Source of the DNA: Caballeronia arationis
GTDB lineage: Bacteria > Pseudomonadota > Gammaproteobacteria > Burkholderiales > Burkholderiaceae
DNA length: 64,000 nt
Reading direction: 5' to 3'
NCBI RefSeq assembly: GCF_001544975.2
Contig: NZ_FCOG02000017.1
Span: 1 to 64,000 of the forward strand
Of this stretch, positions 43,354-63,595 are shown piece by piece (positions within the stretch are counted from its first letter, which is position 1; the number at the start of each line of letters is the position of its first letter). Under the pieces are notes generated by a model that made no database searches, was not told the origin of the DNA, and saw nothing but the letters and a program-made list of their open reading frames with translations. Position numbers and translations under genes: made by a program.

Positions 43354-44330
43354 ACATCCGCCAGCTTCAGTACTTCCTTGCGGTGGCTGCCGAACTGAAC
43401 TTCACGCGCGCATCCGAACGCGTGAACATCGCGCAGCCCGCCCTGAGCGCGCAGATCATCTCGCTCGAAGAGGAACTCGGCACGCCGCTGTTTACCCGCG
43501 AGAAGCGCAAAGTCCTGCTCACGCCTGCCGGTGAGATTCTCGTGGAGCATGCGCAGCGCGTGCTGAACACGGCATCGGCGGCGATAGCGGCGGTCCGTGC
43601 ATCGGGTCGCGGCGCGCGGGCGCAATTGGTGGTCGGCGCGATCTACACCGCGATCTATTGCTTCCTGCCCAACACCTTGCGCGTGTTCAAGGCGCTCGCG
43701 CCCAATTCCGATGTGAGCCTCCAGGAGATGACCATCGCACAGCAGATCGCCGGCCTGAAGGAAGGCGCGATCGAAGTCGGGCTCGTGCGCGGACACATCT
43801 ACGATCACAACATCGTCACCGAGTTGCTCTATCGCGAGCTGCTCGTGGTCGCGGTGCCCGCAGGCAGCGAATACGACGTGCCCGGCCCGGTCGGTCTCGG
43901 CGAGCTCGCGACATGGCCGCTGATCGCGGTCGCGCGCGGCACCGCGACAGAACGCGGCTATGGCGACCGGGTCCTCGACATCTTCGAGGACGAAAGCCGC
44001 AAGCCCACCATCGCGCGAGAGGCGTACGACATGCACACGTCGGCGTGTCTCGTGGCGGCGGGGATGGGCGTCGCGGTGGTGCCGGCGATCATGCAGTTGA
44101 TGAAGCCGCTCGGAATCAGCTACAGGCCGCTCGATGCAGACGCGCCGGGCGTATCGCTGTCTCTCGCCTGGCACAAGGACCGGGTACCGCCGCTTCTCGG
44201 AGTCTGGCGCGAGGCGGCCCGTGCGAATGCCGCGACGTTGATCGCGCAGCATCCGGAACTGTTCCTGCACAATGCCCGGCAACCAGCCGCCGAGCCTCCC
44301 GCCGCCGTCGACACCCCCGTCACCACGTAA
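43350..44330 (+). CDS. LysR family transcriptional regulator
   Basis: 326 residues. The helix-turn-helix is MNIRQLQYFLAVAAELNFTRASERVNIAQPALSAQI (residues 1-36), with a full effector domain after it and an Ala/Pro-rich tail. ATG 43350 is preferred to GTG 43344 because GATGGAG lies upstream at the correct spacing and it overlaps the preceding stop. It converges with the P450 gene (11-bp overlap of the 3' ends). Candidate activator of the P450 operon or of the MFS at 50296. AatC/CatM-like subgroup. Confidence 0.9.
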   Translation: MNIRQLQYFLAVAAELNFTRASERVNIAQPALSAQIISLEEELGTPLFTREKRKVLLTPAGEILVEHAQRVLNTASAAIAAVRASGRGARAQLVVGAIYTAIYCFLPNTLRVFKALAPNSDVSLQEMTIAQQIAGLKEGAIEVGLVRGHIYDHNIVTELLYRELLVVAVPAGSEYDVPGPVGLGELATWPLIAVARGTATERGYGDRVLDIFEDESRKPTIAREAYDMHTSACLVAAGMGVAVVPAIMQLMKPLGISYRPLDADAPGVSLSLAWHKDRVPPLLGVWREAARANAATLIAQHPELFLHNARQPAAEPPAAVDTPVTT

Positions 44331-45531: not shown

Positions 45532-45581
45532 TGCTTCTCCCTTCATCGTCTAGGCTCGCGGGCGACGCCCGGAACAGGTTT

Positions 45582-46277
45582 TCAGAGACCGCCGTTGACG
45601 TCGACCGTCGCGCCGGTGATGTAGCGTGCGTCGTCGCTGACAAGAAAGCCGATGACCGACGCGATCTCCTCCGGCTCGGCCGCGCGTTGCAGGCCCGAGC
45701 CGGCGATCAGCTTGTCGCGGATTTCTTTGGGCACTTTTTCGCCCATCGCCGTGTTGATCGTGCCCGGCGACACCGCAGCGACGCGGATCCCATGCGGCCC
45801 GAGCGGCTTCGCGAGACTCTTGGTCAGGTTGACGATGGCCGCTTTCGAGCCGCCGTAATCGGTGACGCCGCTGCCGAGCGTCGCGACGATCGACGCGAGA
45901 TTGACAATCACACCGCCGCCGCCCGCCGCGACCAGACGCCTCGCGACCTCCTGGCTCAGGAAGAACGGCGCTCGCGTGTTCACGCCGTAAGTGAAGTCAT
46001 AGTCGGACGGTGAGATGTCGAAGAACGACTTGCCGTGCCACACGCCGGCGTTGTTGACGAGCACGCGGATCGTGCCGTATTCCGCGTCGATGAATTCGAT
46101 TGACGCCCTGATCTGTTCGTAGTCGGTCACGTCGCACTTGCGATACGCGAACTCGCCCTTGCCGGTATCAGCGACATCCATGCCGACCACCGTATAGCCG
46201 CGCTCACTCAGGTTCTTGCAAATGGCTTGCCCGGTCAGTCCGTTGGACCCCGTCACGACTGCGATTTTCCTGCTCAT
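45582..46277 (-). CDS. SDR family oxidoreductase
   Basis: 231 residues. TGSNGLTG is the cofactor motif (a slight variant of TGxxxGIG), NNAG and the Ser in LASIVATL, and YGGSK for the catalytic Tyr/Lys. The end ITGATVDVNGGL is FabG-like. It lies 32 bp from the upstream CoA-transferase and 50 bp from the P450. A likely role is to oxidise the alcohol formed by the P450, with the ALDH completing the oxidation. Confidence 0.9.
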   Translation of the reverse strand: MSRKIAVVTGSNGLTGQAICKNLSERGYTVVGMDVADTGKGEFAYRKCDVTDYEQIRASIEFIDAEYGTIRVLVNNAGVWHGKSFFDISPSDYDFTYGVNTRAPFFLSQEVARRLVAAGGGGVIVNLASIVATLGSGVTDYGGSKAAIVNLTKSLAKPLGPHGIRVAAVSPGTINTAMGEKVPKEIRDKLIAGSGLQRAAEPEEIASVIGFLVSDDARYITGATVDVNGGL

Positions 46278-46309
46278 GCCTCACCTCTTCGTCATGTGAT
46301 GTTGATGAA

Positions 46310-47482
46310 CTAGCGCGAGCGCGTCGGCATCGAAGGCCACGCCGCCCCGCTTGACGTCAGCACTTCCGCGTTGTGCTCGCCGAGCATCGGCGGAGAACGC
46401 GTGATGTGCGTCGGCGTTCCCGAGAACTGGAGCGGGTTGTTGATGACCCTGAACTCCCCGCCCTTCGGGTGATGCAGGGTCCTGAGCAATGTCTCGGCGA
46501 CGTGCGGGTCGCTGAACACTTCCGGCCAGGTCCTGATCGCGCCGTAGATGGCGCCCGCCGACGACAGCACCGTTTCCCAGTGAGCCAGATCGCGCGCAGC
46601 AAAGATCTCCGCGAGCCGCGCATCGACCGCCTCGCGGTTCGCGAGGCGCGCATCCTTTGTCGCGAACCGCGGATCGGTCTTCAGCTCGCTCGCACCGAGT
46701 GCGTCGCAAAGGATCTGCCAGAACTTGTCGTTGATCGTGATGATCATGATGTCCCGGCCATCGGCGCTCGCGTAGGTGTTGTTGGGCACGATGTCCCAAT
46801 GCTGGTTGCCCATGCGTACTGGCGTCTTGCCGGTGAGGTCGAAGTACACATCGCGCGGGACCTGGCTGAAGATGCTCGCGTCGAGCATCGAGAGGTCCAC
46901 GCGCTGCCCCTCGCCCGTCCGTTCGCGCGCCTGCAACGCGGTGAGGATGCCGATCGTCGCAATGAGCGCGGTCACGAGGTCCGAGAACGGAAACCCGGTC
47001 TTGAGCGGTCCTGATTCCTCGGTGCCCGTCACCTGCATCACGCCCGAGACGGCCTGGATCACCATGTCGAGCGCCGGGCGGTTCCTGTCAGGCCCGGTGC
47101 GCCCGAACCCTGAAATCGAGCAGTAGACAAGACGCGGATTGATCTTGCGCAGGTCCTCGTAACCGAGGCCCGCGCGCTCGGTCAGGCCCGGCCGGAAGTT
47201 TTCGACCAGCACGTCGGCTTCGGCAGCGAGGGCGAGAGCGGCGGCGCGGCCCTCTTCGCTTTTGAGATCGAGCACGATGCCGCGCTTGTTCCGGTTCACG
47301 CCGAGGAAGAACGCGCCGTCCCCGCCCAGCGTCGTTTCTCCGGAGCGGCGAAACGGATCGCCTTCCGGCTGCTCGACCTTGATCACGTCGGCGCCCGAAT
47401 CACCGAGCATCATCGTGGCGAACGGCCCGGTCATCATCTGCGTGAAGTCGAGGATCTTCAGTCCCGCAAGCGCCGCGTTCAT
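46310..47482 (-). CDS. CaiB/BaiF family CoA-transferase
   Basis: 390 residues. FTQMMTGPFATMMLGDSGADVIKVE, NRNKRGIVLDLKSEEG, and the Asp in DLSMLDASIFSQV are class III CoA-transferase features. Its start overlaps the ECH stop by 4 bases (ATGA). It would activate the acid made by the ALDH as a CoA thioester. It is less close to the proteins at 38797 and 57682 than those two are to each other. Confidence 0.9.
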   Translation of the reverse strand: MNAALAGLKILDFTQMMTGPFATMMLGDSGADVIKVEQPEGDPFRRSGETTLGGDGAFFLGVNRNKRGIVLDLKSEEGRAAALALAAEADVLVENFRPGLTERAGLGYEDLRKINPRLVYCSISGFGRTGPDRNRPALDMVIQAVSGVMQVTGTEESGPLKTGFPFSDLVTALIATIGILTALQARERTGEGQRVDLSMLDASIFSQVPRDVYFDLTGKTPVRMGNQHWDIVPNNTYASADGRDIMIITINDKFWQILCDALGASELKTDPRFATKDARLANREAVDARLAEIFAARDLAHWETVLSSAGAIYGAIRTWPEVFSDPHVAETLLRTLHHPKGGEFRVINNPLQFSGTPTHITRSPPMLGEHNAEVLTSSGAAWPSMPTRSR

Positions 47483-48345
47483 GCTTCGTCCTTCTTGACG
47501 TAGAACGCCTCGCGATCATGATTCGACGCGCGCACGCCCTTGTCCCGGCGCTGCTTCATGAAGTTGTATTCGTCGCCCTCGTAGCGGACGTTGGTCGCGA
47601 GCGTGTGCAGGATGTGGCCATAGGAAAACTGACTCGATATGCCGAGCGATTCCATCGCAAGATTGGTGGCGGCCTTGCCCATGACGATGCCGTCGCGCGG
47701 CAGGCGAACGATGCGTTCGGCCCACTCCTCGCCTGCGTCTGCTAGCGAAGCGAGCGGCACCACCCGGTTGAGCAGACCATTCGCAAGGCACGTTTGCGCG
47801 TCCCACACGTCGGCCATCAGCAGCAGTTCGCGCGCCTTGCGCGGACCCATCGCCATCATTTCCCACGCGGCAAAATATGCGGCGCCGGAGAGTCCCAGCT
47901 TCTGCTCCGGGTGCCCCATCTTCGCGGTATCGGCCGCGATCACGAGATCCGATGCTTCCGCCAGATACAGCCCGCCGCCCAGGCAGTAGCCCTTGACGAG
48001 CGACAGCGTCGGCTTGAGGCACTTGAACACGCGCTCGAAGCGTGCGAGGTAATCCTTGTCGTGCAAGAGGCGCGCGCGCTGGCTCGGCTTGCGCGGACGG
48101 CCCTTGTCGTCGAACGTGGTCTCGCCGTATTCGGTGCCGACTTCGGCAAGGTCGTGCCCGGTCGTGAAATCGTCGCCCGCGCCTTGCAGCACGATCACGC
48201 GCACGTCGTCGTCGTCCTCGGCGCGATCGTAGCCGTCCATTAACTGTTCGAGCATCGCGTTGGTCATCGCGTTTTTCTTCTCGGGACGATTGATGGTGAT
48301 GTATGCGCGGCCGTCTTTCGCGAGGTAATCGATGCTGCCTGTCAT
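47479..48345 (-). CDS. Enoyl-CoA hydratase/isomerase family protein
   Basis: 288 residues of the crotonase fold. The oxyanion segment DDFTTGHDLAEV and GYCLGGGLYLAEASDLVIAADTAKMGHPEQKLG are recognisable, including the Glu at the E144 position. It is longer than typical and has an inserted loop (YGETTFDDKGRPRKPSQRAR), which suggests a bulky substrate. It follows the ALDH gene by 64 bp and is coupled to the CoA-transferase by an ATGA overlap. Confidence 0.88.
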   Translation of the reverse strand: MTGSIDYLAKDGRAYITINRPEKKNAMTNAMLEQLMDGYDRAEDDDDVRVIVLQGAGDDFTTGHDLAEVGTEYGETTFDDKGRPRKPSQRARLLHDKDYLARFERVFKCLKPTLSLVKGYCLGGGLYLAEASDLVIAADTAKMGHPEQKLGLSGAAYFAAWEMMAMGPRKARELLLMADVWDAQTCLANGLLNRVVPLASLADAGEEWAERIVRLPRDGIVMGKAATNLAMESLGISSQFSYGHILHTLATNVRYEGDEYNFMKQRRDKGVRASNHDREAFYVKKDEA

Positions 48346-48409
48346 GCTGCGTCTCCTTTCGCGCCCGTGCGAGCGCCTTTTCGATGAGTGAAATGCAGTG
48401 GGGAAATGT

Positions 48410-49909
48410 TCAGACGTTCAGGTTGATGGCCACTGCCTTCACCTCGGTGTACATCTCGATCGCGTCGTAGCCGCGCTCGCGTCCCCAGCCCGACTGCTTG
48501 TAGCCGCCGTACGGCAGCGCTGAATCCGGAGACGAGAGCGCATTGACGTTGACGATGCCCGCCTGCATCCGACGCGCCATCTTGTGCGCCGTGCCGAGAT
48601 CGCTCGTCCAGATGCTGGCGGCGAGGCCGTAGGTCGTCGCGTTGGCCGTGGCGCTTATGCGGTCTAGGTCGTCATCGTCGAAGGACATCGCGCACAGCAC
48701 CGGCCCGAAGATCTCTTCATCGTGCACGGCCATACCGGGCTTCACGCCGGTCAGCACGGTCGGCTGCACGAAGAAGCCGCGCTCGCCCGTCGTGCCGCCG
48801 CCGGCCAGAAGCGTTGCGCCCTGCTCCTGTCCGCTGTGGATGTAACCCATCACGCGGTCGAGCTGGCGTCGCGAGATCACGGGGCCCATCTCCGTACCGA
48901 CGTCGAGACCGTGGCCCAGCCTGATGCTGTTCGCCCGACGGGCGACGGCGTCGAGCACCTGATCGTAGGCACGTTCATGCACGTAAAGCCGTGAACCCGC
49001 CGCGCAAATCTGGCCGGCGTGAAAGAAGATCGACGAGCACACGCCCGCTGCGGCCGCTTCGAGGTTCGCATCGGGGAAAACGATGACGGGAGACTTCCCG
49101 CCGAGTTCGAGCGACACTCGCTTGAGGTTGCCGCTCGCCCCCTGCAGGATGCGTCGACCGGTTTCGCCAGAGCCAGTGAACGCGACCTTGTCGACCCCGG
49201 GGTGCGCGGCGATCGCGGCGCCGGCCGGATTGCCGAAGCCCGTAACGACATTGAGGACGCCCGGCGGAATGCCCGCTTCAAGCGCGAGTTCGCCGAGCCG
49301 CAGCGCGGTGAGCGGTGTCTGCTCGGACGGCTTGAGCACGATGGTGCAGCCGGTCGCGAGCGCGGGCGCGATCTTCCACATCGCCATATTCAACGGGAAA
49401 TTCCACGGGATGATCTGACCGACGACGCCCACCGGTTCGCGCAACGTGTACGCGTGCCATTCGCCCGGCAGCGAAACGTTTGGCGTCTGACCGCCCATCT
49501 TGGTCGTCCACCCCGCCATGTAGCGCAGCATTTCGGCGATGCCCACGACGTCGCCATTGCGGCAGAACACGCGCGGCTTGCCGCTGTTGATGCACTCGAG
49601 ATCGGCGAGTTCCTCGGCATGCGCTTCGATCAGTTCGGCGAAGCGCAACATGAGCCGCGTGCGTTCCGCCGGCGTCGTCTTGCGCCACGGGCCTTCGAAC
49701 GCCCGGCGGGCCGCATCGACGGCACGGTCGACATCGGTTGCGGACGCTTCGGCCGCCGTCGCGATGACTTCGCCCGTGGCCGGATCGAGGATGTCGGTGC
49801 GACGACCCGAATCGGCCTCGACCATGCAGCCGTCGATCAGAAGCCCATGTTCTCGCTGAAGAAAGTTTCGCGATGCTTCACCCAGTGCGGGATGCAAGCT
49901 CGTGGTCAT
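48410..49909 (-). CDS. Aldehyde dehydrogenase
   Basis: 499 residues. PWNFPLNMAMW and FTGSGETG for NAD, LELGGKSP for the general base, and FHAGQICAAG for the nucleophilic Cys. ATG 49909 is chosen over one ten codons earlier because AAAGGAC lies at the right distance. It is the first gene of the five-gene minus operon ending with P450, and is divergent from the MFS at 50296, with a long inverted repeat between them. Confidence 0.9.
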   Translation of the reverse strand: MTTSLHPALGEASRNFLQREHGLLIDGCMVEADSGRRTDILDPATGEVIATAAEASATDVDRAVDAARRAFEGPWRKTTPAERTRLMLRFAELIEAHAEELADLECINSGKPRVFCRNGDVVGIAEMLRYMAGWTTKMGGQTPNVSLPGEWHAYTLREPVGVVGQIIPWNFPLNMAMWKIAPALATGCTIVLKPSEQTPLTALRLGELALEAGIPPGVLNVVTGFGNPAGAAIAAHPGVDKVAFTGSGETGRRILQGASGNLKRVSLELGGKSPVIVFPDANLEAAAAGVCSSIFFHAGQICAAGSRLYVHERAYDQVLDAVARRANSIRLGHGLDVGTEMGPVISRRQLDRVMGYIHSGQEQGATLLAGGGTTGERGFFVQPTVLTGVKPGMAVHDEEIFGPVLCAMSFDDDDLDRISATANATTYGLAASIWTSDLGTAHKMARRMQAGIVNVNALSSPDSALPYGGYKQSGWGRERGYDAIEMYTEVKAVAINLNV

Positions 49910-50011
49910 GTCTGTGTCCTTTTGATCGGTATGCGCCATTGCGATCAGCGCCGTTCCATTACGCGTCGTCCGACGCGATCTGGAGCCACTCTACCGAGCA
50001 ACCCGCCGACA

Positions 50012-51958: not shown

Positions 51959-53431
51959 ATGACCACGCTCACCCAAAGACTCGCCGATTTCGCAACGAGC
52001 ACGCGCTTCGAAGACCTCCCGCCGCCCGTGGTGGCCGAATGCAAGCGGCTCCTGCTCGACACGATCGGCTGCGCGCTCGGCGCGGTCGGCACCGAGAGCG
52101 GGCGAATCGCGCTAGGCTACGTCGGCGTGCTTGGCGGCAAGCCTGACGCGACCGTCATCGGCACGACGCAGCGCAGTTCGGTGACCGCAGCCGCGTACGC
52201 GAACGCGCGCCTCGCGAACGTGCTCGATGCGGACGACACGTTTCCCACCTCGACGCACTTCGGCAACGCAACCGTGTTCTCCGCGCTCTCGCTCGCCGAG
52301 CTTTACGGCAGCAGCGGCCGCGACCTGCTGACGGCGATCGCGGCGGGCTTCGATGTCGGCGCGCGGGTCGGAAGCTGGATGGGCGCGCCGATGCAGGTCG
52401 AGAACGGTCGCGTGATCGGCTGGAACGAACTGGGCGGACCGGCCGCGACGATCACGTGGGCGGCGATCGGCGCCTCGGTAAACATCGCGAAGCTCGACGC
52501 GCGGCAGGCCAACCATGCGTTTGGCATCGGCGGCAGCAACTCTCCGCAGCCGACCTTGCGCAAATGGGCGGAGTCCGTCGAGCAGCCGATGTACAAATAC
52601 GCCGATGCCGGCTGGTGCGCGGAGATCGGCGTCTCGTCGGCGCTGCTGGCAAAGCTGGGCAGCACGGGCTTCCGCGACATACTGGACGGTCCGAATGCGT
52701 TCTGGAAGTTCTACGGCTCGCCCGGCCACGACGACGACGCGCTGATGGCCGGTCTCGGCGCCGACTGGCAGATCCTCAACACGACGTACAAGCCCTGGCC
52801 GTGCTGCCGCTGGATCCATCATCCGCTGACGGCCTTCACGCGTCTGCGAGAGCGGCACGAGCTGGAGGCGTCCGAGATCGAGCGTGTCGTCGTGCGTGCA
52901 AATCCGTTCGCGCTGACACCGATCTTTCGCGAGCAGCAACCGCACGACGCGCTGAACGCGGAATTCAGCCACGCCCATGCGCTCGCGGCCGTTGCGCACG
53001 ACGTGCCCGCAGGTCCGCTCTGGTACGAACCGAAGACGATGAACGACCCGCACATTGCGGCGTTCCGTGAACGCGTCACCGTCGTCGCGGAGCCGACGTC
53101 GTCGAACATCGCGGAGTGGATGACGGGCGGGCAATGGCGCGGCGTGCCGGGCGGCGTCGACGTTCATGCGCGCGGACAGGTTTTCAGCGCGACTGCCGAT
53201 CATTCCCTTGGCGATCCGTGGACCCCATCAACGCACTTCTCCGATGCGCAGCTAATCGCCAAGTTCAACGTGATGGTCGGGCTCGATGCGAACGGCCTGG
53301 GCAGCGTGGCGTTGCAGCGCGCTGCGACGCAAGTGATCGACGCCGTCATGACGCTCGATGCCAGTCCGGTCGAGCACCTCGCCGGTAGCCTTGCGGCGCT
53401 TGCCCGATCGATGGGCGAAGCGGCGCGCTAG
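51959..53431 (+). CDS. MmgE/PrpD family protein
   Basis: 490 residues. LLLDTIGCALGAVG near the N-terminus, NVLDADDTFPTSTHFGNATVF (active-site helix region) and ATITWAAIGASVN match the 2-methylcitrate dehydratase/cis-aconitate decarboxylase fold. Catabolic members decarboxylate or dehydrate tricarboxylic or dicarboxylic acids. AGGA precedes ATG 51959, 7 bp after the MFS stop. No other 2-methylcitrate-cycle genes are nearby, so the housekeeping prpD role is unlikely. It converges on the MFS at 53428 with a 4-bp overlap. Confidence 0.88.
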   Translation: MTTLTQRLADFATSTRFEDLPPPVVAECKRLLLDTIGCALGAVGTESGRIALGYVGVLGGKPDATVIGTTQRSSVTAAAYANARLANVLDADDTFPTSTHFGNATVFSALSLAELYGSSGRDLLTAIAAGFDVGARVGSWMGAPMQVENGRVIGWNELGGPAATITWAAIGASVNIAKLDARQANHAFGIGGSNSPQPTLRKWAESVEQPMYKYADAGWCAEIGVSSALLAKLGSTGFRDILDGPNAFWKFYGSPGHDDDALMAGLGADWQILNTTYKPWPCCRWIHHPLTAFTRLRERHELEASEIERVVVRANPFALTPIFREQQPHDALNAEFSHAHALAAVAHDVPAGPLWYEPKTMNDPHIAAFRERVTVVAEPTSSNIAEWMTGGQWRGVPGGVDVHARGQVFSATADHSLGDPWTPSTHFSDAQLIAKFNVMVGLDANGLGSVALQRAATQVIDAVMTLDASPVEHLAGSLAALARSMGEAAR

Positions 53432-54672
53432 GACACCCGCACGTCCGGCGACGACCGGACGCAACACAGGAATATGGCGCCCGCAAGCGGGCCGGCGGCA
53501 ATCACGCCGAGCGTCATATCGAGCGATCGTCCATGCGCGAACACATAGCCGGCGAGGATCGGCGAAATGAAGCTTCCCACCGACCATATCGTGTTGACGA
53601 AGCCCGCGGCGGCACCGGCCAGCCGCGGTCCCGAAGCCTGCGTGTAGAGTCCGATCAGCAGCGGCGTGTACCCGTATGCAGCAGCGCCGAGGAACGGCGC
53701 GATGAAAAAATATCCGGACGTCGACGAGCACTTGCCGAACGCCACGAGCAGCACGATGAATAGCGCGAGGTCCACGACCGCTACGAGCCTCGCATAGCGA
53801 TGCAGGACGTCGTAGAGCCAGCCGAAGAGCGGCTTCGACAGGAACGCGCCGACGCCGAACCACATCAGCACCGAACCCGCGACCACCGGCGACAGGCCGT
53901 GCGCAACCGTCAGCAGCGCGCTCGCCCACGCGACGAAACCGAGCGTGCCATAAAGCGCCCCCGCACCGCCGAGCGCGACGAAGACAATGTTGCGGTTTCT
54001 CAGCAGCGCGGCAACCCGCGCGCCGCTGATACGCGGCACGGAGAGTCCCGCCGGCGCATCCCGCACGACGAGCACACAGATTGTCGTGAAGACGAGCGTT
54101 GCGATGCCAAGGATCTGATACGCGGACTGCCATCCGTACGCGAGAGCGAACCGCGGCACGATGGCGTTCGCCAATACGACCGATACCGATGTCCCGGTCG
54201 CCCAGATTCCGAAGGCCCTGCCCTTGTCCTTGCCAAACCAGACCGTCAGTATCTTGATGGTCGCCCCATATTCCGCGCCGGCCGCGAAGCCCATCAGCAA
54301 GTGCAGCGCGATGCCTGCCCAGAAGGTGTGGACGAAGCTGAAGCAGAACGTGAGCGCCGCGAGCGGGAACATCGAAATCGCCAGCGTCGCGCGGCTGCCC
54401 AGCTTGTCCGCCAGGATCCCGCCGATCGGGCACGACACCGTATAGCCGACATAGAAGGCGGTGGTCAGCGCGCCGAGCAATGCCAGATCGAAGCCCAGCG
54501 CGCGTCCGGCCGGCGCCGCAATACTCGCCCACGCGAAGCGATCGACGCAGCTCACCGTGAACGCCGCCCAGACCACCAGCAGAATGACCCAGCGAAAGCC
54601 GCTGTTCGCTGCATCCGGAGTCGTTGCCGACAGCAGGTGCCCGGTCGCTGCGAGTTGATCGTTGGATTTCAT
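53428..54672 (-). CDS. MFS transporter (ACS-like)
   Basis: 414 residues, about 12 helices. RWVILLVVWAAFTVSCVDRFAWASIAAPAG and the cytoplasmic ADKLGSRATLA loop fit the anion:cation symporter-type MFS family. ATG 54672 with GGGAG upstream is used; a 36-codon upstream extension covers the operator and is rejected. It is divergent from the second MFS at 54877. A copy of the shared operator motif lies 29-58 bp upstream. Confidence 0.87.
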   Translation of the reverse strand: MKSNDQLAATGHLLSATTPDAANSGFRWVILLVVWAAFTVSCVDRFAWASIAAPAGRALGFDLALLGALTTAFYVGYTVSCPIGGILADKLGSRATLAISMFPLAALTFCFSFVHTFWAGIALHLLMGFAAGAEYGATIKILTVWFGKDKGRAFGIWATGTSVSVVLANAIVPRFALAYGWQSAYQILGIATLVFTTICVLVVRDAPAGLSVPRISGARVAALLRNRNIVFVALGGAGALYGTLGFVAWASALLTVAHGLSPVVAGSVLMWFGVGAFLSKPLFGWLYDVLHRYARLVAVVDLALFIVLLVAFGKCSSTSGYFFIAPFLGAAAYGYTPLLIGLYTQASGPRLAGAAAGFVNTIWSVGSFISPILAGYVFAHGRSLDMTLGVIAAGPLAGAIFLCCVRSSPDVRVS

Positions 54673-54700
54673 TCGACCGCGTCTCCCATTGTTGTTGCAC

Positions 54701-54730
54701 ACATCCAATAATGGTTCATCCATTGGATGT
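54701..54730 (-). promoter_or_regulatory. Shared operator motif, site 1
   Basis: ACATCCAAT-N12-ATTGGATGT is a perfect 9-bp inverted repeat (54701-54709/54722-54730). Inside it is the motif TGGTTCATCCATTGGAT (54712-54728), also found upstream of three other genes. It lies just downstream of a GTATAC (54745-54750) that can serve as -10 for the minus-strand MFS. This puts the site at the transcription start. Confidence 0.6.
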
Positions 54731-54779
54731 AGCACGCAATTAGCGTATACCTTGGCGCCCGGGACGCGGCCGTTTGGCA

Positions 54780-54827
54780 TTGACAGCAGCCGTCGTCCTG
54801 TCTAAATTATTGGTTCATCCATTGGAT
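54780..54827 (+). promoter_or_regulatory. Promoter with shared operator motif, site 2
   Basis: TTGACA (54780-54785), a 17-base spacer and TAAATT (54803-54808) form a sigma-70-type promoter for the MFS at 54877. TGGTTCATCCATTGGAT at 54811-54827 is identical to the core of site 1 and covers the predicted start of transcription. Confidence 0.65.
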
Positions 54828-54876
54828 CACGGTCAGTAAAACGACTGCGTTTCCTCTCCATGCGAGCCATGCCGCC

Positions 54877-56100
54877 ATGAGCGAACCCGCCGCTCCATTT
54901 CGAAGCATCGTCCAGTCACCATCGCTGTTCATCCTCGTCTGCATCACGCTCTCAGGGACCTTTCCGCTGCACGTATTCGTGCCCGCGCTGCCCTCCGCGG
55001 CCAGCGACCTGCATGCATCCACCGCAGGCATCGGGCTGACAATCACGCTCTATGTCGTCGGGCTATCGGTCGGACAGCTCGTCTACGGACCGTTGTCGGA
55101 TCGTTACGGGCGGCGGCCGGTGCTTCTGGCCGGACTGTCGCTGTTTGCGGTTGCGAGCGTAGCGGCGGCCTTCGCGCCGTCGCTTGCGGGGCTCGAATGC
55201 GCGCGGCTAGCGCAGGCGCTCGGCGGCTGCTCGGGGCTCGTGCTCGGACGCGCGATCGCCCGCGACAGTTCGGGATCGACCACGCTGATCCGCCGCCTCG
55301 CGACGCTCAGTATCGCGATGGCGGTGGCGACCGCCGTGGCGCCGATCATCGGCGCGCAGATCGTCGAGCATCTGGGGTGGCGGTCGATCTTCTCCGCACT
55401 GAGTGTCGTCAATGTGCTGGTGCTTTTCGCCGTATGGCTCGTGGTTCCGGAAACGCACTCGGCCTCTCGCGACTTCAGGATGAGCCGCTATCTGAAAAGC
55501 TACCTCGCGCTGCTTCGATCGCCCGCTTTCGTCACGCACAGTCTTGGCGGAGCAAGCGCGACCACCGGCATCTATGCGTTCCTTTCGGCCTCGCCGTTCA
55601 TCCTCGAATCGCGACTCGGCTTGTCCACGCGCGCGTTCGGCTTTGCCTACTTCTCGCTGGTAGTCGGACTCGCGAGCGGCCAGTCGACGGCAAAGCGACT
55701 CGCCGGCCGGGTGTCCGCACGCAGCGCCCTCATCGTCGCGAGCCTGATCATGGGCGCGGCTTCGATCAGCTTGCTGGTTTCGTATTGGTGCGATTCGCTC
55801 TCGGTGACATCGGTAGTGGCGCCGATGATCGTGATGTTCTTCGCGACCGGACTGTCGAGCCCATTCGCGATCAGCAGCGCGCTCGATGTGGACCAGTCTG
55901 TTGTCGGCGCGGCGGCGGGGCTTTATGGCTGTCTGCAGATGGGCTACGGTGCCCTTTGCACGGCTGCCGTGGGCCTGTCCTCCAGCGATCCGACCGCCTC
56001 GATGATCGGCGCATTGCTCGTATCGAGCGCCATCGCCGGATTTGCGTTCAAGGCCGCGCCGCGCGCACATGTCCGAGCAAACCAGGAGCCTGTCGCGTAG
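54877..56100 (+). CDS. MFS transporter (Bcr/CflA, DHA1 type)
   Basis: 407 residues, about 12 helices. TFPLHVFVPALPSAASDLHAS, then YGPLSDRYGRRPVLLAGL (motif A) and RLAQALGGCSGLVLGRAIARD are the Bcr/CflA pattern. The family includes efflux and sulfonamide/bicyclomycin export proteins. In a catabolic regulon it may relieve toxicity of an aromatic compound. The ribosome site is weak (GCGAG). Confidence 0.88.
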   Translation: MSEPAAPFRSIVQSPSLFILVCITLSGTFPLHVFVPALPSAASDLHASTAGIGLTITLYVVGLSVGQLVYGPLSDRYGRRPVLLAGLSLFAVASVAAAFAPSLAGLECARLAQALGGCSGLVLGRAIARDSSGSTTLIRRLATLSIAMAVATAVAPIIGAQIVEHLGWRSIFSALSVVNVLVLFAVWLVVPETHSASRDFRMSRYLKSYLALLRSPAFVTHSLGGASATTGIYAFLSASPFILESRLGLSTRAFGFAYFSLVVGLASGQSTAKRLAGRVSARSALIVASLIMGAASISLLVSYWCDSLSVTSVVAPMIVMFFATGLSSPFAISSALDVDQSVVGAAAGLYGCLQMGYGALCTAAVGLSSSDPTASMIGALLVSSAIAGFAFKAAPRAHVRANQEPVA

Positions 56101-56131
56101 CCGTCTGACCGCGAATTAGGGTTTGCTCTGT

Positions 56132-56184
56132 TTGACACCCGGCACCAGTTCTTTATGCTTCACTCAATGGTTCATCCAATGAAA
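56132..56184 (+). promoter_or_regulatory. Porin promoter with shared operator motif, site 3
   Basis: TTGACA (56132-56137), 16 bases and TATGCT (56154-56159) make a promoter. ATGGTTCATCCAATGAA (56167-56183) begins at the expected transcription start. The motif differs from sites 1 and 2 only after the CCA. It is 72 bp before the porin ATG. Confidence 0.65.
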
Positions 56185-56254
56185 CGAGCCAGGATCCGAC
56201 ACACATAAGAACGCTTTCATCGTTCCCTGCGGGGCGCGATAACAGGAGACAGCC

Positions 56255-57484
56255 GTGAAGCTTCGGAACACCTTGGTTGGAGCGCTGACACTTGCCGCAG
56301 GAGGGCCAGTCTTCGCGCAGAGCAGCGTGACGCTGTACGGATTGCTCGACGAAGGCATCAACTACGTCAACAACGTGCAGACGGCGCAGGCGGGAGCACC
56401 GAACGGCCGGACCGGCGCGAGCCAGATCTCGATGACGAGCGGCGTCATGCAGGCCTCACGCTGGGGACTGCGCGGCACCGAAGACCTTGGTGGCGGCTAC
56501 AAGGCCATTTTCGTGATCGAAAGCGGCTTCGACGTGGGCACCGGGCGGTTTCAGCAAGGCGGTACGTTCTTTGGCCGCCAGTCGTATGTAGGTGTGACGA
56601 GCCCCTGGGGCAGCGTCACGGCGGGCCGGCAATACGATTCAATCGTCGATTCCATTGGCGCCATGCAGGCGGGCAGTTTCGCTGGCGGCGCTTTCGCCGA
56701 TCACCCGGGCGATATCGACAACGTCGCCGACACCCAGCGCATCAACAACTCGATCAAGTACACGAGTCCGACATACGCCGGGTTGACGCTCACGGGCCTG
56801 TACGGCTTCGGCGGCGTACCCGGCTCGTTCGGGAAGAACAGCATCTGGTCCGTCGGGGCACGATATGCCGCGGGACCGTTCGCGCTCGCCGGCGGCTACA
56901 TGCACATCAACAACCCGAATCAGTCGTTCTACGGGAACAATGCGGTCGGTTCGCCCACTGCCAACAACCTTGGAGCGGTTACCGGCGTACAGGTGAACCC
57001 GATCTACGGCGGATTCGCATCGGCGCACCGCATGCAGATCTACTCCGGCGTCGCGCAATACACAGTCGGCTTTCTCACGGCGGGTGTCGCCTACTCCAAC
57101 ATCCGTTTCCAGGAGCTGAACGACCCCGCCTCGGGCACGCTGGCCCTCACCAATCCGTTCGGATACACGGGCAATGCGGCCTTCAACAATTACAACGTGT
57201 ACGCCGGCTACTACATCACGCCGGCGCTGCAAGTCGGCGGGTCGTACAACTACCTGAGGGGCGGCGCGATCAACGGCAAAGACAGCGCCGCGTATCAGAC
57301 GTTCAACGCCGTCATCGACTATTTCCTGTCGAAACGTACCGATGTCTATCTCGCCGCCGCGTATATGAAGGCCTCAGGCGTCGATTCGACCAAGCAGGCC
57401 GCCGTTCCGTACATCGTAACGTTGACGCCGGCGAACACGTCCAATCAGGTTGTCGCGCGCGTCGCTATCCGCCACAAGTTCTGA
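56255..57484 (+). CDS. Burkholderia-type general porin
   Basis: 409 residues. A signal peptide (MKLRNTLVGALTLAAGGPVFAQ) is followed by SSVTLYGLLDEGINYVNN, the start of trimeric Gram-negative porins of Burkholderiales. SRWGLRGTEDLGGGYKAIFVIESGF, the GRQSYVGVTSPWG strand pair and the C-terminal VVARVAIRHKF (terminal Phe for outer-membrane insertion) are all in place. It passes small solutes into the periplasm. The shared operator indicates it is induced with the MFS and CoA-transferase genes, which is unusual for a general porin. Confidence 0.95.
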   Translation: MKLRNTLVGALTLAAGGPVFAQSSVTLYGLLDEGINYVNNVQTAQAGAPNGRTGASQISMTSGVMQASRWGLRGTEDLGGGYKAIFVIESGFDVGTGRFQQGGTFFGRQSYVGVTSPWGSVTAGRQYDSIVDSIGAMQAGSFAGGAFADHPGDIDNVADTQRINNSIKYTSPTYAGLTLTGLYGFGGVPGSFGKNSIWSVGARYAAGPFALAGGYMHINNPNQSFYGNNAVGSPTANNLGAVTGVQVNPIYGGFASAHRMQIYSGVAQYTVGFLTAGVAYSNIRFQELNDPASGTLALTNPFGYTGNAAFNNYNVYAGYYITPALQVGGSYNYLRGGAINGKDSAAYQTFNAVIDYFLSKRTDVYLAAAYMKASGVDSTKQAAVPYIVTLTPANTSNQVVARVAIRHKF

Positions 57485-57503
57485 CCGGCATCGACGATGT
57501 CTG

Positions 57504-57544
57504 ACGGGCAGGCAGGCTACGGCTTTCCTGCCCGTTTTCATTTG
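57504..57544 (+). terminator. Rho-independent terminator after porin
   Basis: ACGGGCAGG (57504-57512) and CCTGCCCGT (57527-57535) form a perfect 9-bp stem followed by TTTTCATTT. It lies 19 bases after the porin stop. Confidence 0.88.
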
Positions 57545-57598
57545 AAAGCAGCACGACCATCAGCACGACGCGACCCCATGAAATCCCCGCGCACCGTC

Positions 57599-57651
57599 TT
57601 GACACCGGCAAAACGCCGGCTCATTATCGTTCATAGGTTGATCCATTGAAT
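57599..57651 (+). promoter_or_regulatory. CoA-transferase promoter with shared operator motif, site 4
   Basis: TTGACA (57599-57604), 17 bases and CATTAT (57622-57627) are a sigma-70-type promoter. TAGGTTGATCCATTGAAT (57634-57651) starts at the predicted transcription start and matches sites 1-3 at GGTT-ATCCA-TG. It ends 30 bases before the ATG of the CoA-transferase gene. Confidence 0.62.
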
Positions 57652-57681
57652 TTATCGCACCACATTCAGGAGACGCTTGAG

Positions 57682-58869
57682 ATGTCCGACGTTCAAACCG
57701 GCCTGCCGCCCGAGCGGCAGCACATTTCCGACGCGGCGCACAAGCGCCCGCTCGATGGCATCGTCGTCGTGGAGACGTCGAGTTTTCTCACTGGTCCATT
57801 CACGGCGATGATGCTCGCCGATCTCGGTGCCGACGTGATCAAGGTCGAGCCGCCTGGCGGCGATGGCTTTCGCAAGTTCGGCCACAACCGCGACGGCTTC
57901 GGCGCTTCGTGGACGAACGCGAACCGCGGCAAACGCAGCGTCGTGATTGACCTGAAAACGGAGGAAGGCACGCAGCGCCTGAAGAACCTGCTTGCGAGCG
58001 CCGACATCCTCGTCGAGAACTGGCGGCCGCGCGTAGCTGCGTCGCTAGGTCTCGGCCATGACGTGCTGCAGGCGCTGTATCCGCGGCTGATCCGCCTGTC
58101 GATCAACGGCTTTGGCGACACCGGCGCGCTCGCCAACGCACCCGCGTTCGATTCGCTGATTCAGGGCCGCACGGGCATCGTCGCGTCCGAAGGGCGCAAC
58201 GGCAAGCCGGCGGTGACGCCGTTCAACATGGTCGACAAGGTGACGGGCGCATTCGGTACTCAGGCGATCCTCGCCGCTCTCTACGAACGTGAGAAGACCG
58301 GCAAGGCGAGCCACATCAAGCTGCCGATGCTCGACGTCATGGGCTATTTCAACTTCCCCGATATGTTTCAGCACCGCACCTTCGACGGCGACACGTCCGC
58401 GTGGAAGCCGCCCGCGTCGCAAGTGCTGGAGACGTCAGACGGCTTCGTTGTCATCTCGCCGGCCAACGGCGCGCAGATGTCGAAGACGCTCAACGCGATC
58501 GATCGCCCGGAGTGGAAGGAAGAGTTCAAGCAGATGCGCGATCCGGTCGCGATGGCCGATGAGTTCTTCCGGCGCGTGGGCGCCGTGGTCAAGGAAAAGG
58601 AAACCGAGTACTGGCTTGCACGCTTCGCCGAACTCGACGTGCCCGCTGCGCCGGTCTTCTCGCTCGATGAATTCCTCAATGACGCGCAGGTCGCCAACAA
58701 CCGCGTGTTCGATTTCGTCGACTCCCCGGTCGGGCCGATTCGTACCGCGCGCTATCCAGCGACCTTCGACGACCGCAGGTTCACCGCGCGTTCCGGTCCG
58801 CCCGCGATAGGCGAGCACGACGACGAAATCGGCGGCCATTCAGACACTCAACCCAGGAAAACAGCATGA
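57682..58869 (+). CDS. CaiB/BaiF family CoA-transferase
   Basis: 395 residues from ATG 57682 (AGGAGACG upstream); an earlier TTG is rejected because it lies in the operator. SSFLTGPFTAMMLADLGADVIKVE, NRGKRSVVIDLK, ENWRPRVAASLG and the Asp in LPMLDVMGYF are present. It shares long blocks with the protein at 38797 and is its paralogue. The last 4 bases overlap the FAH-family gene (ATGA). It probably transfers CoA to the acid formed in this aromatic/alicyclic pathway. Confidence 0.92.
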   Translation: MSDVQTGLPPERQHISDAAHKRPLDGIVVVETSSFLTGPFTAMMLADLGADVIKVEPPGGDGFRKFGHNRDGFGASWTNANRGKRSVVIDLKTEEGTQRLKNLLASADILVENWRPRVAASLGLGHDVLQALYPRLIRLSINGFGDTGALANAPAFDSLIQGRTGIVASEGRNGKPAVTPFNMVDKVTGAFGTQAILAALYEREKTGKASHIKLPMLDVMGYFNFPDMFQHRTFDGDTSAWKPPASQVLETSDGFVVISPANGAQMSKTLNAIDRPEWKEEFKQMRDPVAMADEFFRRVGAVVKEKETEYWLARFAELDVPAAPVFSLDEFLNDAQVANNRVFDFVDSPVGPIRTARYPATFDDRRFTARSGPPAIGEHDDEIGGHSDTQPRKTA

Positions 58870-59753
58870 AACTCGCAAGCTTCAATGGAGGGCGGATCGG
58901 GGTCGTCATCGAGGACGACATCGTCGACGTATCGGAACTCGTGAACGTGACGCCCGGCACGTGGCCGCCGGTCGGCATGTTGCATGTGATCGATCGATTC
59001 GCATCGCTGCGCGGCAAACTCGACGATTTCGCTCAGACCGCGCCGCGCATCAGACTGGCGGACGTCAGACTGGAAACGCCGGTCGCATGGCCTAACAAGG
59101 TGATCGCCTTCCCGGCCAACTATCACGCACACGTCGAGGAAATGAAGCGTGGCACAGGTCTGATCTCGCCGTTCAAGGCCGACGGCCAGGGCTTCTTCCT
59201 GAAGGCGAATTCGAGCCTGAGCGGCCCGGCCGATCCGATCGTGTTGCCGCAGATTCCGAATCGCCAGATCCATCACGAGTGCGAGCTTGCCATCATCATC
59301 GGCAAGGGCGGCCGCGAGATCAGTCGCGACGACGCGCTCACGCATGTGTTCGGCTACGCGTGCCTGATCGACGTCGTGGTGCGCGGCAAGGAAGAGCGCG
59401 TGATGCGCAAGTCCTACGACACGTTCTGCCCGGTAGGCCCGTACATCGTCACCGCCGACGAAGTGCCCGATTACGACGCCATTGACCTGAAGCTCTCGGT
59501 CAACGGCGAAGTGCGTCAGCACGCGAGCACGCGCGATCTCATAGTCGATATTCCCGAGATGATCCGGATGGCGTCCGCGGTCATGACGCTCTATCCCGGC
59601 GATATCATCGCGACGGGTACGCCTGCGGGCGTCGGTCCGATCAATGGCGGCGACAAGGTCGTGATCGAGATCGCAAAGGTCGGTTCGATGTCGATCGATG
59701 TCGTGCAAAGCGAAGGCGGCGGTCATCCCGTCTGGGACAAGCCGCTCAACTGA
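58866..59753 (+). CDS. Fumarylacetoacetate hydrolase family protein
   Basis: 295 residues. FAH-fold motifs: PANYHAHVEEM, HHECELAIIIGKGGREI (metal Glu residues), YACLIDVVVRG and TLYPGDIIATGTPAGVG. Members hydrolyse C-C bonds of acylpyruvates, such as fumarylpyruvate in the gentisate pathway. With a gentisate-type dioxygenase on the other strand at 62549 this is its natural role, but isomerase or decarboxylase functions also exist in the family. It is coupled to the CoA-transferase and followed after 12 bp by a hydrolase. Confidence 0.9.
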   Translation: MKLASFNGGRIGVVIEDDIVDVSELVNVTPGTWPPVGMLHVIDRFASLRGKLDDFAQTAPRIRLADVRLETPVAWPNKVIAFPANYHAHVEEMKRGTGLISPFKADGQGFFLKANSSLSGPADPIVLPQIPNRQIHHECELAIIIGKGGREISRDDALTHVFGYACLIDVVVRGKEERVMRKSYDTFCPVGPYIVTADEVPDYDAIDLKLSVNGEVRQHASTRDLIVDIPEMIRMASAVMTLYPGDIIATGTPAGVGPINGGDKVVIEIAKVGSMSIDVVQSEGGGHPVWDKPLN

Positions 59754-59765
59754 CGGAGGTCGAAA

Positions 59766-60656
59766 GTGCGCATTGAGTCCGGTCACCCGAATGGCTTGCA
59801 TACTGAACGCATCGCCACCGGCGACGGCCTGACGCTGGCCGCCACCGTCAGCGGAGAACACGGGCGACCTGCCGTGATCCTGCTGCACGGTGGCGGCCAG
59901 ACGCGACATTCGTGGCGCGGCACCGTTCGCACCCTGGGCGCTCTCGGCTATCATGCGCTCGCGTTCGATGCCCGCGGCCACGGCGACAGCGACTGGTCAG
60001 CAAGGTCCGACTATTCGTACGACCGCCTCGCTGACGACCTTCTAACCGTCGCGTCTACCATGGCGCCGAGCCCGCTTGTCATCGGCGCGTCGATGGGCGG
60101 CATGACGGCGTTTCACGCGGTCGGCCGCAATCAAGCCTCGTTCGCGCGTGCGATGGTCCTCGTGGACATAGCGCCGCGCATCGATCCAGAAGGCCTCAAG
60201 CGTGTGAGCGACTTCCTGAATGGTTACCGCGACGGCTTCGCGAACATCGAGGAAGCCGCCGATGCAGTGGCCGCGTACAACCCGCATCGTCCGCGGCCGC
60301 GCGATCCGCGCGGCCTGATGAAGAACCTCCGCCTTCGTGACGACGGCCGGCTGCACTGGCACTGGGACCCGAGCTTCTTTCGTGAGCGCAGCGATGAAAG
60401 GCGTGAAAAGCACGCGCAGAGTCTGCTCGACATGTGCAGCAACATCACGATACCGGCTTTGCTCGTGCGTGGCGCTCAGAGCGACGTCGTGACAACGAAG
60501 GGGATCGACGAGCTGCGCGCGCGTCTGCCTCAACTCGAAGTCGGTACGGTGCCGGGCGCCGGCCACATGATCGCGGGAGATCGCAATGAAGCCTTCAATG
60601 GCGCGATCATGCCGTTCATCGAGCGCCATGCACCGCTGCCGCGCATAAGCCCATGA
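59766..60656 (+). CDS. Alpha/beta hydrolase
   Basis: 296 residues. LLHGGGQTRHSW (oxyanion loop), FDARGHGDSDW, nucleophile Ser in IGASMGGMTA, and the C-terminal GAGHMIAGDR (His). GTG 59766 is the start, with GGAGG at good distance. It converges on the 35-codon ORF at 60671. Related proteins are ester, enol-lactone or C-C bond hydrolases; the substrate is not readable. Confidence 0.88.
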   Translation: MRIESGHPNGLHTERIATGDGLTLAATVSGEHGRPAVILLHGGGQTRHSWRGTVRTLGALGYHALAFDARGHGDSDWSARSDYSYDRLADDLLTVASTMAPSPLVIGASMGGMTAFHAVGRNQASFARAMVLVDIAPRIDPEGLKRVSDFLNGYRDGFANIEEAADAVAAYNPHRPRPRDPRGLMKNLRLRDDGRLHWHWDPSFFRERSDERREKHAQSLLDMCSNITIPALLVRGAQSDVVTTKGIDELRARLPQLEVGTVPGAGHMIAGDRNEAFNGAIMPFIERHAPLPRISP

Positions 60657-60837: not shown

Positions 60838-62493
60838 TCAAGCCTCGCTCTGCTCCACCGATTTCGTCTCCAGGCGGCTGCATTGCGCGCCCCGAACCGT
60901 ATCGATGAGCACGAGCGGATCGTCCGGCAACGCATCGCCGCGCCACGCCACCTGCCCGTCGGGACGCACGAGTACAAAACGGCGCTCATACAACTGACGA
61001 GCGTCGTCGTTGTCGATCACCACCGATTTGAACGGCACTTTGCGCGCCGCTGCTGCTTCTTCCAGCGCGTTCGCGCCGGACGCGTCATTGTCGAAGCACA
61101 TCAGCACGAATTCCTTGCCGAACAAGTCGAGCGTCGACTGCCCCTCAGCCAGCCACACGTGCGGCGCGCGCGAACCGGGCCGCGCGGTCTGCACGTAGCT
61201 CGACACTTCATCGGGCGGTTGCGGCGTGCCATCGGGCACGATGATCGGCGAGCCTTCGTACATGTAGCCGAGGTGAATGCCGATCGAAAACCACTCGCGC
61301 TTCATCAACTCGGTGTACTGGTTGCCGAATTCAATGCGCGCCGCTTCGGAGCCCGGGCCGTCCTCGAAAATCTCCTTCGACGGCGATAGCACGCGCGGCG
61401 ACAGCATGCGCTTCAGATTGCCGGTCGCCTCCGACACGTTGCGGATCGCCACAGGCCGCATCTCCGTTTCGTACGTCTCCAGCAAATGCGCGCCGCCCCA
61501 GCCTTGCAAGCTCGCCGCGAGCTTCCACGAAAGATTCACCGCGTCCTGAATGCCCGTGTTCATGCCGAAACCGCCCGTCGGCGACGTGAGATGCGCGGCG
61601 TCTCCCGCGACGAACACGCGTTTCGTGCCATAGCTATCGGCGACGAGCTGACGCCGGACCCACGGCAGCATCGAAAGAATCTCGAAGTCGAACTCGCGGC
61701 CGACCGCGCGCACGATCGCTTCACGCATCGTTTCCTCGCTGTGCGTCTGGCGGCTGTTGTCGCCGACGAGCGAGAAGCGCCACTGGTCGCTTCCATTGAT
61801 TGCAACGAGGGTAGCCCAGGTGCCTTCCGGCCCGATAAAGATGTAACGATAGGCGCGTTTCTTGTCGTGCAGGGCTTCGAGGTCCTTGCATCGGAACACG
61901 ACGTTGGTCGTATAAGTGAGGGTCGGCTCACCGGTCATGCCGATGCCGAGCCCCTGGCGAACGACACTCGCACCGCCGTCCGATCCGACGAGATAACCCG
62001 CCTCTATGACCTTCTCCTCGCCGCTCAGCGTGTCGCGCACTTTCGCGATGACACCGTCCGGCGTCTCACTGAACTCGACGAGTTCAGTGTTGTAGCTGAT
62101 CGTTACGTTGGGCGTCTGTTGAGCAAAGCGGCGCAACACCGGATCGAAGAAATTCTGCGGACACCGCTCGCGCTTCTGCGGACTTTGCGGCGGGCACTTT
62201 TCGTCCTTCGGGCTCGGAAAGACTTCACGTCCGAACTCGTAGCCGTTCAGGCCCGTGACCCATGCACAATCCTGCGGATAGTCGCGGTTGTAGCCGGCGT
62301 CGTGAACCCACGGCACAATGCCCCAGCGGCGGCAATATTCCATGGTCCGCACGCCGACCATGTCCATCTTCGGCTGAATCACCTGCCCATCGCTTCGTTC
62401 GATGAGCATGCATGACACGCCGCGAAAGCCCAGGTCACCGGCGAGTGCCAGTCCGATCGGGCCCGCGCCTACGATCAATACGGGTGTTTGCAT
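60838..62493 (-). CDS. FAD-dependent aromatic monooxygenase (phenol hydroxylase/TfdB type)
   Basis: 551 residues. N-terminal GAGPIGLALAGDLGFRG (FAD), DG motif in YLVGSDGGASVVRQGLG, and GDAAHLTSPTGGFGMNTGIQDAVNLSWKL for the second FAD site are all as in PheA/TfdB/MhpA. A C-terminal thioredoxin-like domain of about 150 residues follows. It hydroxylates an aromatic ring using NAD(P)H and O2. It is 55 bp after the bicupin dioxygenase in the same unit, so hydroxylation to a gentisate-type diol and ring cleavage are linked. Confidence 0.92.
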   Translation of the reverse strand: MQTPVLIVGAGPIGLALAGDLGFRGVSCMLIERSDGQVIQPKMDMVGVRTMEYCRRWGIVPWVHDAGYNRDYPQDCAWVTGLNGYEFGREVFPSPKDEKCPPQSPQKRERCPQNFFDPVLRRFAQQTPNVTISYNTELVEFSETPDGVIAKVRDTLSGEEKVIEAGYLVGSDGGASVVRQGLGIGMTGEPTLTYTTNVVFRCKDLEALHDKKRAYRYIFIGPEGTWATLVAINGSDQWRFSLVGDNSRQTHSEETMREAIVRAVGREFDFEILSMLPWVRRQLVADSYGTKRVFVAGDAAHLTSPTGGFGMNTGIQDAVNLSWKLAASLQGWGGAHLLETYETEMRPVAIRNVSEATGNLKRMLSPRVLSPSKEIFEDGPGSEAARIEFGNQYTELMKREWFSIGIHLGYMYEGSPIIVPDGTPQPPDEVSSYVQTARPGSRAPHVWLAEGQSTLDLFGKEFVLMCFDNDASGANALEEAAAARKVPFKSVVIDNDDARQLYERRFVLVRPDGQVAWRGDALPDDPLVLIDTVRGAQCSRLETKSVEQSEA

Positions 62494-62548: not shown

Positions 62549-63595
62549 CTACACCGCCTCTTCGCGATACAGTCCGAGCTTCTTCAGGGCCGGAAAGTCG
62601 TTGACCTGGAATAGCATCGCGGGCGTGTCGTCCGAGCGGTTGATGTGCTCGTGCAGAGCCCACGGCGGAATCGCCATGAAATCGCCCGGGCCCCACTCGA
62701 AGGTCGTTCCATCCACGATCGTCGCACCCTTCCCGCGCATCACGTAGTAGACGACACTGCCCGTATGACGATGCGCCTTCGTATGCATGCCCGGACGCAA
62801 CGACTGAAGCACGGTGCCGATCGTGGGCAGCGCCGAGTCGCCCGTCAGCGGGTTGAGGTATTCGAGCGCGGTGTCGTCGAACGGATCGGGGGGCAATTCG
62901 GCGGCGAGACGCAGCGCTTCCTGCGACCGTTCCGCGCTATAGACGAGCAGCGGATTGAGCGCCGGCGTGCTCGCGTCGTTAAGCGGTCGCATGAGGCCGC
63001 TGCCGTAGCGCCGGTATGAGCGATCCGGTATCTCCGATACGGCTTGCCGTGGCTTTTCCGAGCCTTCGAAAAAAGTCGCGTGCATCGAGCGCACGAGCGA
63101 TATGTCGAGCACATCGAGCCAGATCATCGGTTCGTCGCCCTTGTGCTCGTGGTCGTGCCATGTCCACGCCGGCGTCAGCACGAGATCGCCTTCGTTCATC
63201 TCGTAGCGCTCGCCATCGACGATCGTATCGGCCCCATGCCCCTTCATGATGAAGCGCAGCGCACTCGCCGTATGCCGGTGTGCAGTCGCAATCTCACCGG
63301 GAAGGATGTACTGGATCGATGCCCAGATGGTCGGCGTCGTGCCGAACGGCAGTCCGCGATTCGCGAGACGTAGCGTTCTGCGCTGGCCGCCCGCTTCCAG
63401 CTTGAGCTTCGCGCCGATCTTTTCGAGCAGCCGTTCGAGATCGCTGGCTTTCCAGTGCGCCGCTTTCATCGCGGATTGCGGCGTGCGCGTGAAGAGCGGT
63501 CCGTCGGTCGGTTGTGCGACGCGGCAGTTGAAGCTGTCGAGTTCTTCGGCCAGCGCCTGGCGTTGCACGGTGTCGGACATCACGGCTTCACTCAT
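62549..63595 (-). CDS. Gentisate 1,2-dioxygenase-like bicupin dioxygenase
   Basis: 348 residues with two cupin domains. Metal-site motifs: PGEIATAHRHTASALRFIMKGHG with LTPAWTWHDH in domain 1, and GMHTKAHRHTGSVVYYVMRGKG in domain 2. This is the gentisate/1-hydroxy-2-naphthoate/salicylate dioxygenase family, which opens rings between the carboxyl and hydroxyl carbons. ATG 63595 follows CGGGAGCGACC. Fumarylpyruvate-type hydrolase is on the opposite strand at 58866. Confidence 0.92.
   Translation of the reverse strand: MSEAVMSDTVQRQALAEELDSFNCRVAQPTDGPLFTRTPQSAMKAAHWKASDLERLLEKIGAKLKLEAGGQRRTLRLANRGLPFGTTPTIWASIQYILPGEIATAHRHTASALRFIMKGHGADTIVDGERYEMNEGDLVLTPAWTWHDHEHKGDEPMIWLDVLDISLVRSMHATFFEGSEKPRQAVSEIPDRSYRRYGSGLMRPLNDASTPALNPLLVYSAERSQEALRLAAELPPDPFDDTALEYLNPLTGDSALPTIGTVLQSLRPGMHTKAHRHTGSVVYYVMRGKGATIVDGTTFEWGPGDFMAIPPWALHEHINRSDDTPAMLFQVNDFPALKKLGLYREEAV

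Follow-up and report, generated by a model that had tools for sequence, protein, structure and literature searches.

Candidate operators of a FadR-subfamily GntR repressor across a catabolic gene cluster of Caballeronia arationis

What controls the two MFS transporter genes, the porin gene and the CoA-transferase operon that carry one short motif at their starts in Caballeronia arationis? We analysed a window of 64,000 bases (bases 1-64000 of contig C314, which is 137,730 bases long), together with the rest of the contig and related genomes. A sequence-only reading of the window had listed four motif copies. All four are confirmed by exact match, the first three lying one base further right than it had placed them: GGTTSATCCAWTG occurs without mismatch at 54713, 54812, 56169 and 57636, always on the + strand.

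Candidate operators and promoters in the window

Loose matches to GGTTSATCCAWTG are meaningless, since six occur in the window at two mismatches where 3.79 are expected. The exact 14-mer WGGTTSATCCAWTG, however, has four copies in the window, whereas not one of 300 dinucleotide shuffles contains it (in shuffles of 54-58 kb, the mean was 0.0005 and the maximum 1), and chance is excluded for it. We preferred this 14-mer to the 10-mer GGTTSATCCA because the 40 genome matches of the latter are not far from a rough base-composition estimate of ~27. By comparison, WGGTTSATCCAWTG has nine matches in the whole genome, seven of them inside 31 kb on C314 and the other two on contigs C324 and C357.

The four exact matches in the window define operators 1 (AATGGTTCATCCATT, 54710..54724), 2 (ATTGGTTCATCCATT, 54809..54823), 3 (AATGGTTCATCCAAT, 56166..56180) and 4 (ATAGGTTGATCCATT, 57633..57647), all on the + strand. 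A sigma-70-type scan of 54600-57720 returned three promoters, against 0.8 expected from shuffles, and these are the same TTGACA promoters that the sequence-only reading had described, each directly before an operator. TTGACA-17-TAAATT (54780..54808, +) precedes operator 2, which lies directly 3' of its -10 box, and a Bcr/CflA family MFS transporter gene of 407 aa (54877..56100, +; TIGR00710, 246.9 bits against a cut-off of 200.9). TTGACA-16-TATGCT (56132..56159, +) precedes operator 3 and a porin gene of 409 aa with a GTG start (56255..57484, +; trimeric porin PorB match below cut-off). TTGACA-17-CATTAT (57599..57627, +) precedes operator 4 and the CoA-transferase operon: a Family III CoA-transferase gene of 395 aa (57682..58869, +; NCBIfam matches below cut-off, with PDB sequence matches), a fumarylacetoacetate-hydrolase-family gene (58866..59753, +) and an alpha/beta hydrolase gene (59766..60656, +), the last two with NCBIfam matches below cut-off.

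Operator 1 lies in the divergon whose leftward half is an MFS transporter gene of 414 aa (53428..54672, -; NCBIfam MFS matches, all below cut-off). We set its start at 54672 because ATGAAA-CCAACGATCAACT is common to C. humi; a longer mechanical ORF reaches 54780. Gene starts here are our own choices; the mechanical ORFs that begin at 54780 and 75635 would run across operators. Genes other than those named were called by a custom ORF script, without a gene finder. Operator 1 most likely belongs to this leftward MFS gene, since the operator and an adjacent conserved block precede it even where it has moved: in genomes G061 and G054, the MFS gene adjoins gntR and has both before it. On the strand of this gene, operator 1 comes with no recognisable -35. 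The block itself, resembling GGTATACNNNAATTGC (54736-54752, - strand), keeps a constant spacing ahead of operator 1 in 9/9 genomes compared, with a few changes between genomes and no -35 box; perhaps it serves as the -10 element of an activated promoter, or as the site of a second regulator. Around operator 1, the outer 9-bp inverted repeat of the sequence-only reading is indeed present (ACATCCAAT at 54701-54709, ATTGGATGT at 54722-54730), although it is peculiar to this genome, and the orthologues keep the operator core alone. As it is absent from the eight other genomes compared, we rejected it as a working part of the operator.

A GntR-family gene and further operators on the contig

The window holds no GntR or IclR gene, just as the sequence-only reading had stated: none of the genome's 66 GntR matches (best 150 of 207 candidates scored) or 34 IclR matches (best 150 of 461 candidates scored) falls within it. 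That reading had also proposed looking for a regulator beyond 64 kb, and one is found 4.5 kb past the window edge. C314:68520-69329 encodes a GntR-family, FadR-subfamily protein of 269 aa, with an N-terminal GntR winged HTH (PF00392, residues 43-99; 69.8 bits against a cut-off of 27) and a C-terminal FCD domain (PF07729, residues 131-252; 68.7 bits against 24.3). Its NCBIfam matches are NanR, PdhR and LldR, all below cut-off, and it is the only one of the 66 GntR matches on this contig, again among the best 150 of 207 candidates.

Regulators of either the GntR or the IclR kind had been proposed, and the nearby gene favours the former. The IclR HTH (PF09339) has no match on C314 among the 34 in the genome (best 150 of 461 candidates scored). 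The IclR-family consensuses given in an excerpt of PMC8222616, GKTYCRYW3-4RYGRAMC and TGRAACAN1-2TGTTYCA, are unlike the operator site matrix when compared by eye, with no score. On these two grounds, we favoured GntR and rejected IclR.

Three further exact operators lie past the window, all on the - strand and each after a TTGACA: C314:68360-68374 before a hydratase run, C314:75585-75599 before an ABC transporter run, and C314:85392-85406 before a CoA-transferase/P450 run. The regulator gene is divergent from the hydratase run, with the first of these operators in between. By family matches and gene order, from which operon borders were also inferred, the hydratase run comprises enoyl-CoA hydratase, SDR, acyl-CoA dehydrogenase and electron-transfer-flavoprotein genes, the run from the 75.6 kb operator encodes a branched-chain-type ABC transporter, and the 85.4 kb run holds CoA-transferase, P450, ferredoxin reductase, aldehyde dehydrogenase and GMC oxidoreductase genes. 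Gene order also extends the hydratase run into the window, to a gentisate 1,2-dioxygenase-like cupin gene (62549..63595, -; TIGR02272 below cut-off) and, in the same leftward run, an FAD-dependent monooxygenase gene (60838..62493, -; NF004780 (PRK06126), 670.5 bits against a cut-off of 445), which is perhaps the end of the run served by the operator at 68360-68374.

An exact TTGACA lies 31-38 nt before six of the seven exact motif copies on C314, and all seven precede gene starts, as chosen by us. The porin, the two MFS genes and the CoA-transferase operon do share operators, as the claim of one regulon had it; the set is nonetheless larger than was noted, counting seven exact operators plus one at gntR that is weaker. 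The latter is a palindrome, TCAATGGCTAATCCATTCA, on the - strand at the start of the regulator gene. It or a one-mismatch form of it is kept at gntR in all seven genomes of the genus that hold the regulator, which suggests autoregulation.

These seven were found among 58 genus genomes (E <= 1e-60; up to 44 candidates scored per genome). The 14-mer occurs in 17/58, and the genomes with at least three copies on one contig are the same seven, with no others. In the seven holders, 41 of 45 motif copies lie on the cluster contigs; among the other 51 the total is 13 copies, spread over 10 genomes and never three to a contig. The CoA-transferase was matched in 6/58 genomes (E <= 1e-130), the seventh regulator holder, G072, having no match at that limit. 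A stricter form, AATGGTTCATCCAATGA with one mismatch, was found in one of 41 genomes, the window's own; the other six holders are outside that set.

The nearby gene, its co-occurrence with the motif cluster in the genus and the presence of sites at orthologous promoters (see below) support a GntR interpretation. We consider the motif copies to be candidate operators of the FadR-subfamily repressor at C314:68520-69329, controlling a substrate-induced catabolic regulon, with a probability of about 0.88. Alternatively, a different regulator encoded elsewhere might bind the sites, and the neighbouring GntR gene control something else. The window does contain a LysR gene (43344-44330) and an AraC gene (41145-42128); however, their orthologues are found only in C. 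humi among the compared motif-bearing stretches, which are of limited length. The GntR orthologue and the motif cluster go together across 58 genomes, the half-sites are FadR-like, and no IclR match lies on C314 (best 150 of 461 candidates scored); these points also make another regulator decidedly improbable. The LysR and AraC genes adjoin a second cluster (P450, SDR, CoA-transferase, hydratase and aldehyde dehydrogenase; 44320-49939), akin in content to the regulated one and with no operator of the GGTTSATCCA kind.

Conservation, spacing and form of the operator

The search for the motif in relatives, which the sequence-only reading had called for, found the operator at orthologous promoters in Caballeronia, Paraburkholderia, Pseudomonas and Paracoccus, with some misses. 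The first scan covered loci L047-L070 and left out L071-L100. There, the CoA-transferase promoter has no exact site in P. nodosa (L061) and P. typographi (L057), the Paracoccus loci have one site each, and L066-L068 have none. Across these genomes, the operator core is kept while the flanks diverge.

For counting sites and promoter spacing, L062-L067 (Variovorax and paralogue loci) and the G064 and G072 stretches were omitted, and for L048, L050 and L052 longer stretches from the same genomes were used instead. TTGACA lies 20-50 nt upstream on the same strand in 55 of the resulting 68 asymmetric sites, on the other side in 0/68 and on neither side in 13/68; as the genomes are related, these sites are not independent of one another. 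Only 0.25% of random C314 positions have TTGACA at 20-50 nt. Nine of the 13 remaining sites are leftward-MFS operators, two follow TTGACG and two, in Paracoccus, follow TTTACA. The chance-level frequency of the loose motif in the window would suit a dispersed repeat or chance sequence without regulatory role, but a core kept at the orthologous promoters of other genera amid differing flanks, and at a fixed distance to TTGACA, leaves us giving that reading next to no credence. Placement also bears on the direction of control. Some FadR-subfamily members activate some promoters, and the GntR regulator might likewise be an activator here; the sites, however, lie at or 3' of the -10 box rather than upstream of the -35 box, which is perfect in most cases, making activation very improbable and leaving repression as the preferred reading.

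The sites are also polar. Each of the 55 sites linked to a TTGACA has its GGTT half towards the promoter and its ATCC half on the downstream side, and this holds across genera whose flanks have diverged. This polarity could be selected, with different roles for the dimer halves, for a heterodimer of regulator paralogues, or for the first transcribed bases. We regard this as rather unlikely: relative to their genes, the nine leftward-MFS operators and the sites beside gntR are oriented the opposite way, and shared ancestry of the promoters could also have produced the polarity. Variant sites occur near related regulators. A second paralogue of the GntR gene is present in Paraburkholderia PREW-6R (L047), at 63% identity across the matched region (15659-16339). 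It is accompanied by two variant sites, AGGTTGAACCA at 15443 and TGGTTGATCCA at 17759, and a parallel catabolic cluster is nearby. In Variovorax (L062-L064, ~9960-10005), two adjacent variant sites, TGGGTCATCCA with TGGGTCACCCA or TGGGTGACCCA, lie between the CoA-transferase gene and a 50-53% identical GntR gene.

We also searched 399 genomes of the order with the regulator protein alone (six candidates scored per genome), finding matches in nine genomes and 12 hits outside the genus. All four hits at 55-58% identity (L118-L121) have a site ~1.2 kb upstream of the matched stretch, a count made without a shuffle control. In L118, L119 and L121 this is the symmetric core TGGTTCAACCA, exact to the pattern, and in L120 it is TGGTAGAACCA, with one mismatch. 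L123 and L128, adjacent genes at 45% identity, have one TGGTTCAACCA in common, while the six loci at 39-50% identity (L122, L124-L127 and L129) have no site within 1.5-kb flanks.

The boxes of FadR-subfamily sites are TKGT and ACMA, and the usual spacing from GT to AC is three bases (PMC4494728, in excerpt). The symmetric core agrees with these boxes. Exact TGGT-N3-ACCA is found at L051 (5550), L056 (8736), L118, L119, L121 and L123. In the window sites, one side is TGGT or AGGT and the other TCCA, one or two bases off that consensus as excerpted: TCCA replaces ACMA in the window sites, and AGGT replaces TKGT in 25/68 sites. The system resembles the FadR subfamily (PdhR, LldR, FadR) in its GntR HTH and FCD domain, its TGG...CCA operator with an odd-numbered centre, and its several dispersed operators plus a site at its own gene. 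It is unlike the subfamily in that most sites of the window's lineage are asymmetric, WGGT-TSA-TCCA rather than TKGT-N3-ACMA, in contrast to the symmetric core near distant regulators. The excerpt of PMC4494728 further ties Asn at HTH position 39 to A/T pairs beside the operator centre. SRN occurs in all 16 regulator rows (two being the same gene; position 39 by our own counting), and under a looser pattern T and A also stand beside the centre in the Variovorax and Pseudomonas gntR-side sites, although L120 breaks the rule. The link is consistent but weak, because the site patterns used fix T and A there.

None of the terms porin, P450, aromatic, gentisate, terpen or Burkholderia appears in the main text of PMC4494728, which therefore does not describe a regulon in those terms. 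AlkR, from n-alkane degradation in Pseudomonas aeruginosa, is similar in its GntR-family negative control of a monooxygenase gene; it differs in being called GntR/VanR and in its other target genes (PMC12042122, in excerpt, with operators outside the comparison). Among the matches listed in literature searches, no title or abstract start concerned this cluster, and by operator letters no title named a bacterial operator.

A predicted substrate-induced regulon

We infer that the regulator binds these sites, represses its targets and yields to substrate. Its dimer would recognise (T)CAAWGGTTSATCCAATGA by the GG and CC half-sites; this sequence would sit roughly between -7 and +15 of the TTGACA promoters, so that the bound dimer would overlie the start of these strong promoters and block initiation. 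A pathway ligand, either an organic acid or a CoA thioester, would bind the FCD domain and release the repressor. The porin, two MFS transporters, ABC transporter and the oxidation and CoA-thioester genes of the ~32 kb cluster would then be induced together.

As a weak guess, the substrate would be an alicyclic/terpenoid or aromatic ring compound on which the P450 acts first. This guess draws on the combination of P450, alcohol/aldehyde oxidation, CoA transfer, acyl-CoA dehydrogenase and flavin monooxygenase. The acyl-CoA dehydrogenase resembles the cyclohexane-1-carbonyl-CoA enzyme, by a match below cut-off; no single substrate emerges from the NCBIfam and PDB matches of the hydratase, the CoA-transferase, the monooxygenase and the binding protein.

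The principle of regulation is well known; the motif copies are real and conserved, and the predicted regulon is of an ordinary kind. Its prediction joins ~32 kb of catabolic and transport genes under a named regulator with a portable operator, and the substrate can therefore be sought with a simple reporter. For studies of GntR specificity, it offers an example of drift in an operator whose form is symmetric close to distant regulators but asymmetric in this lineage.
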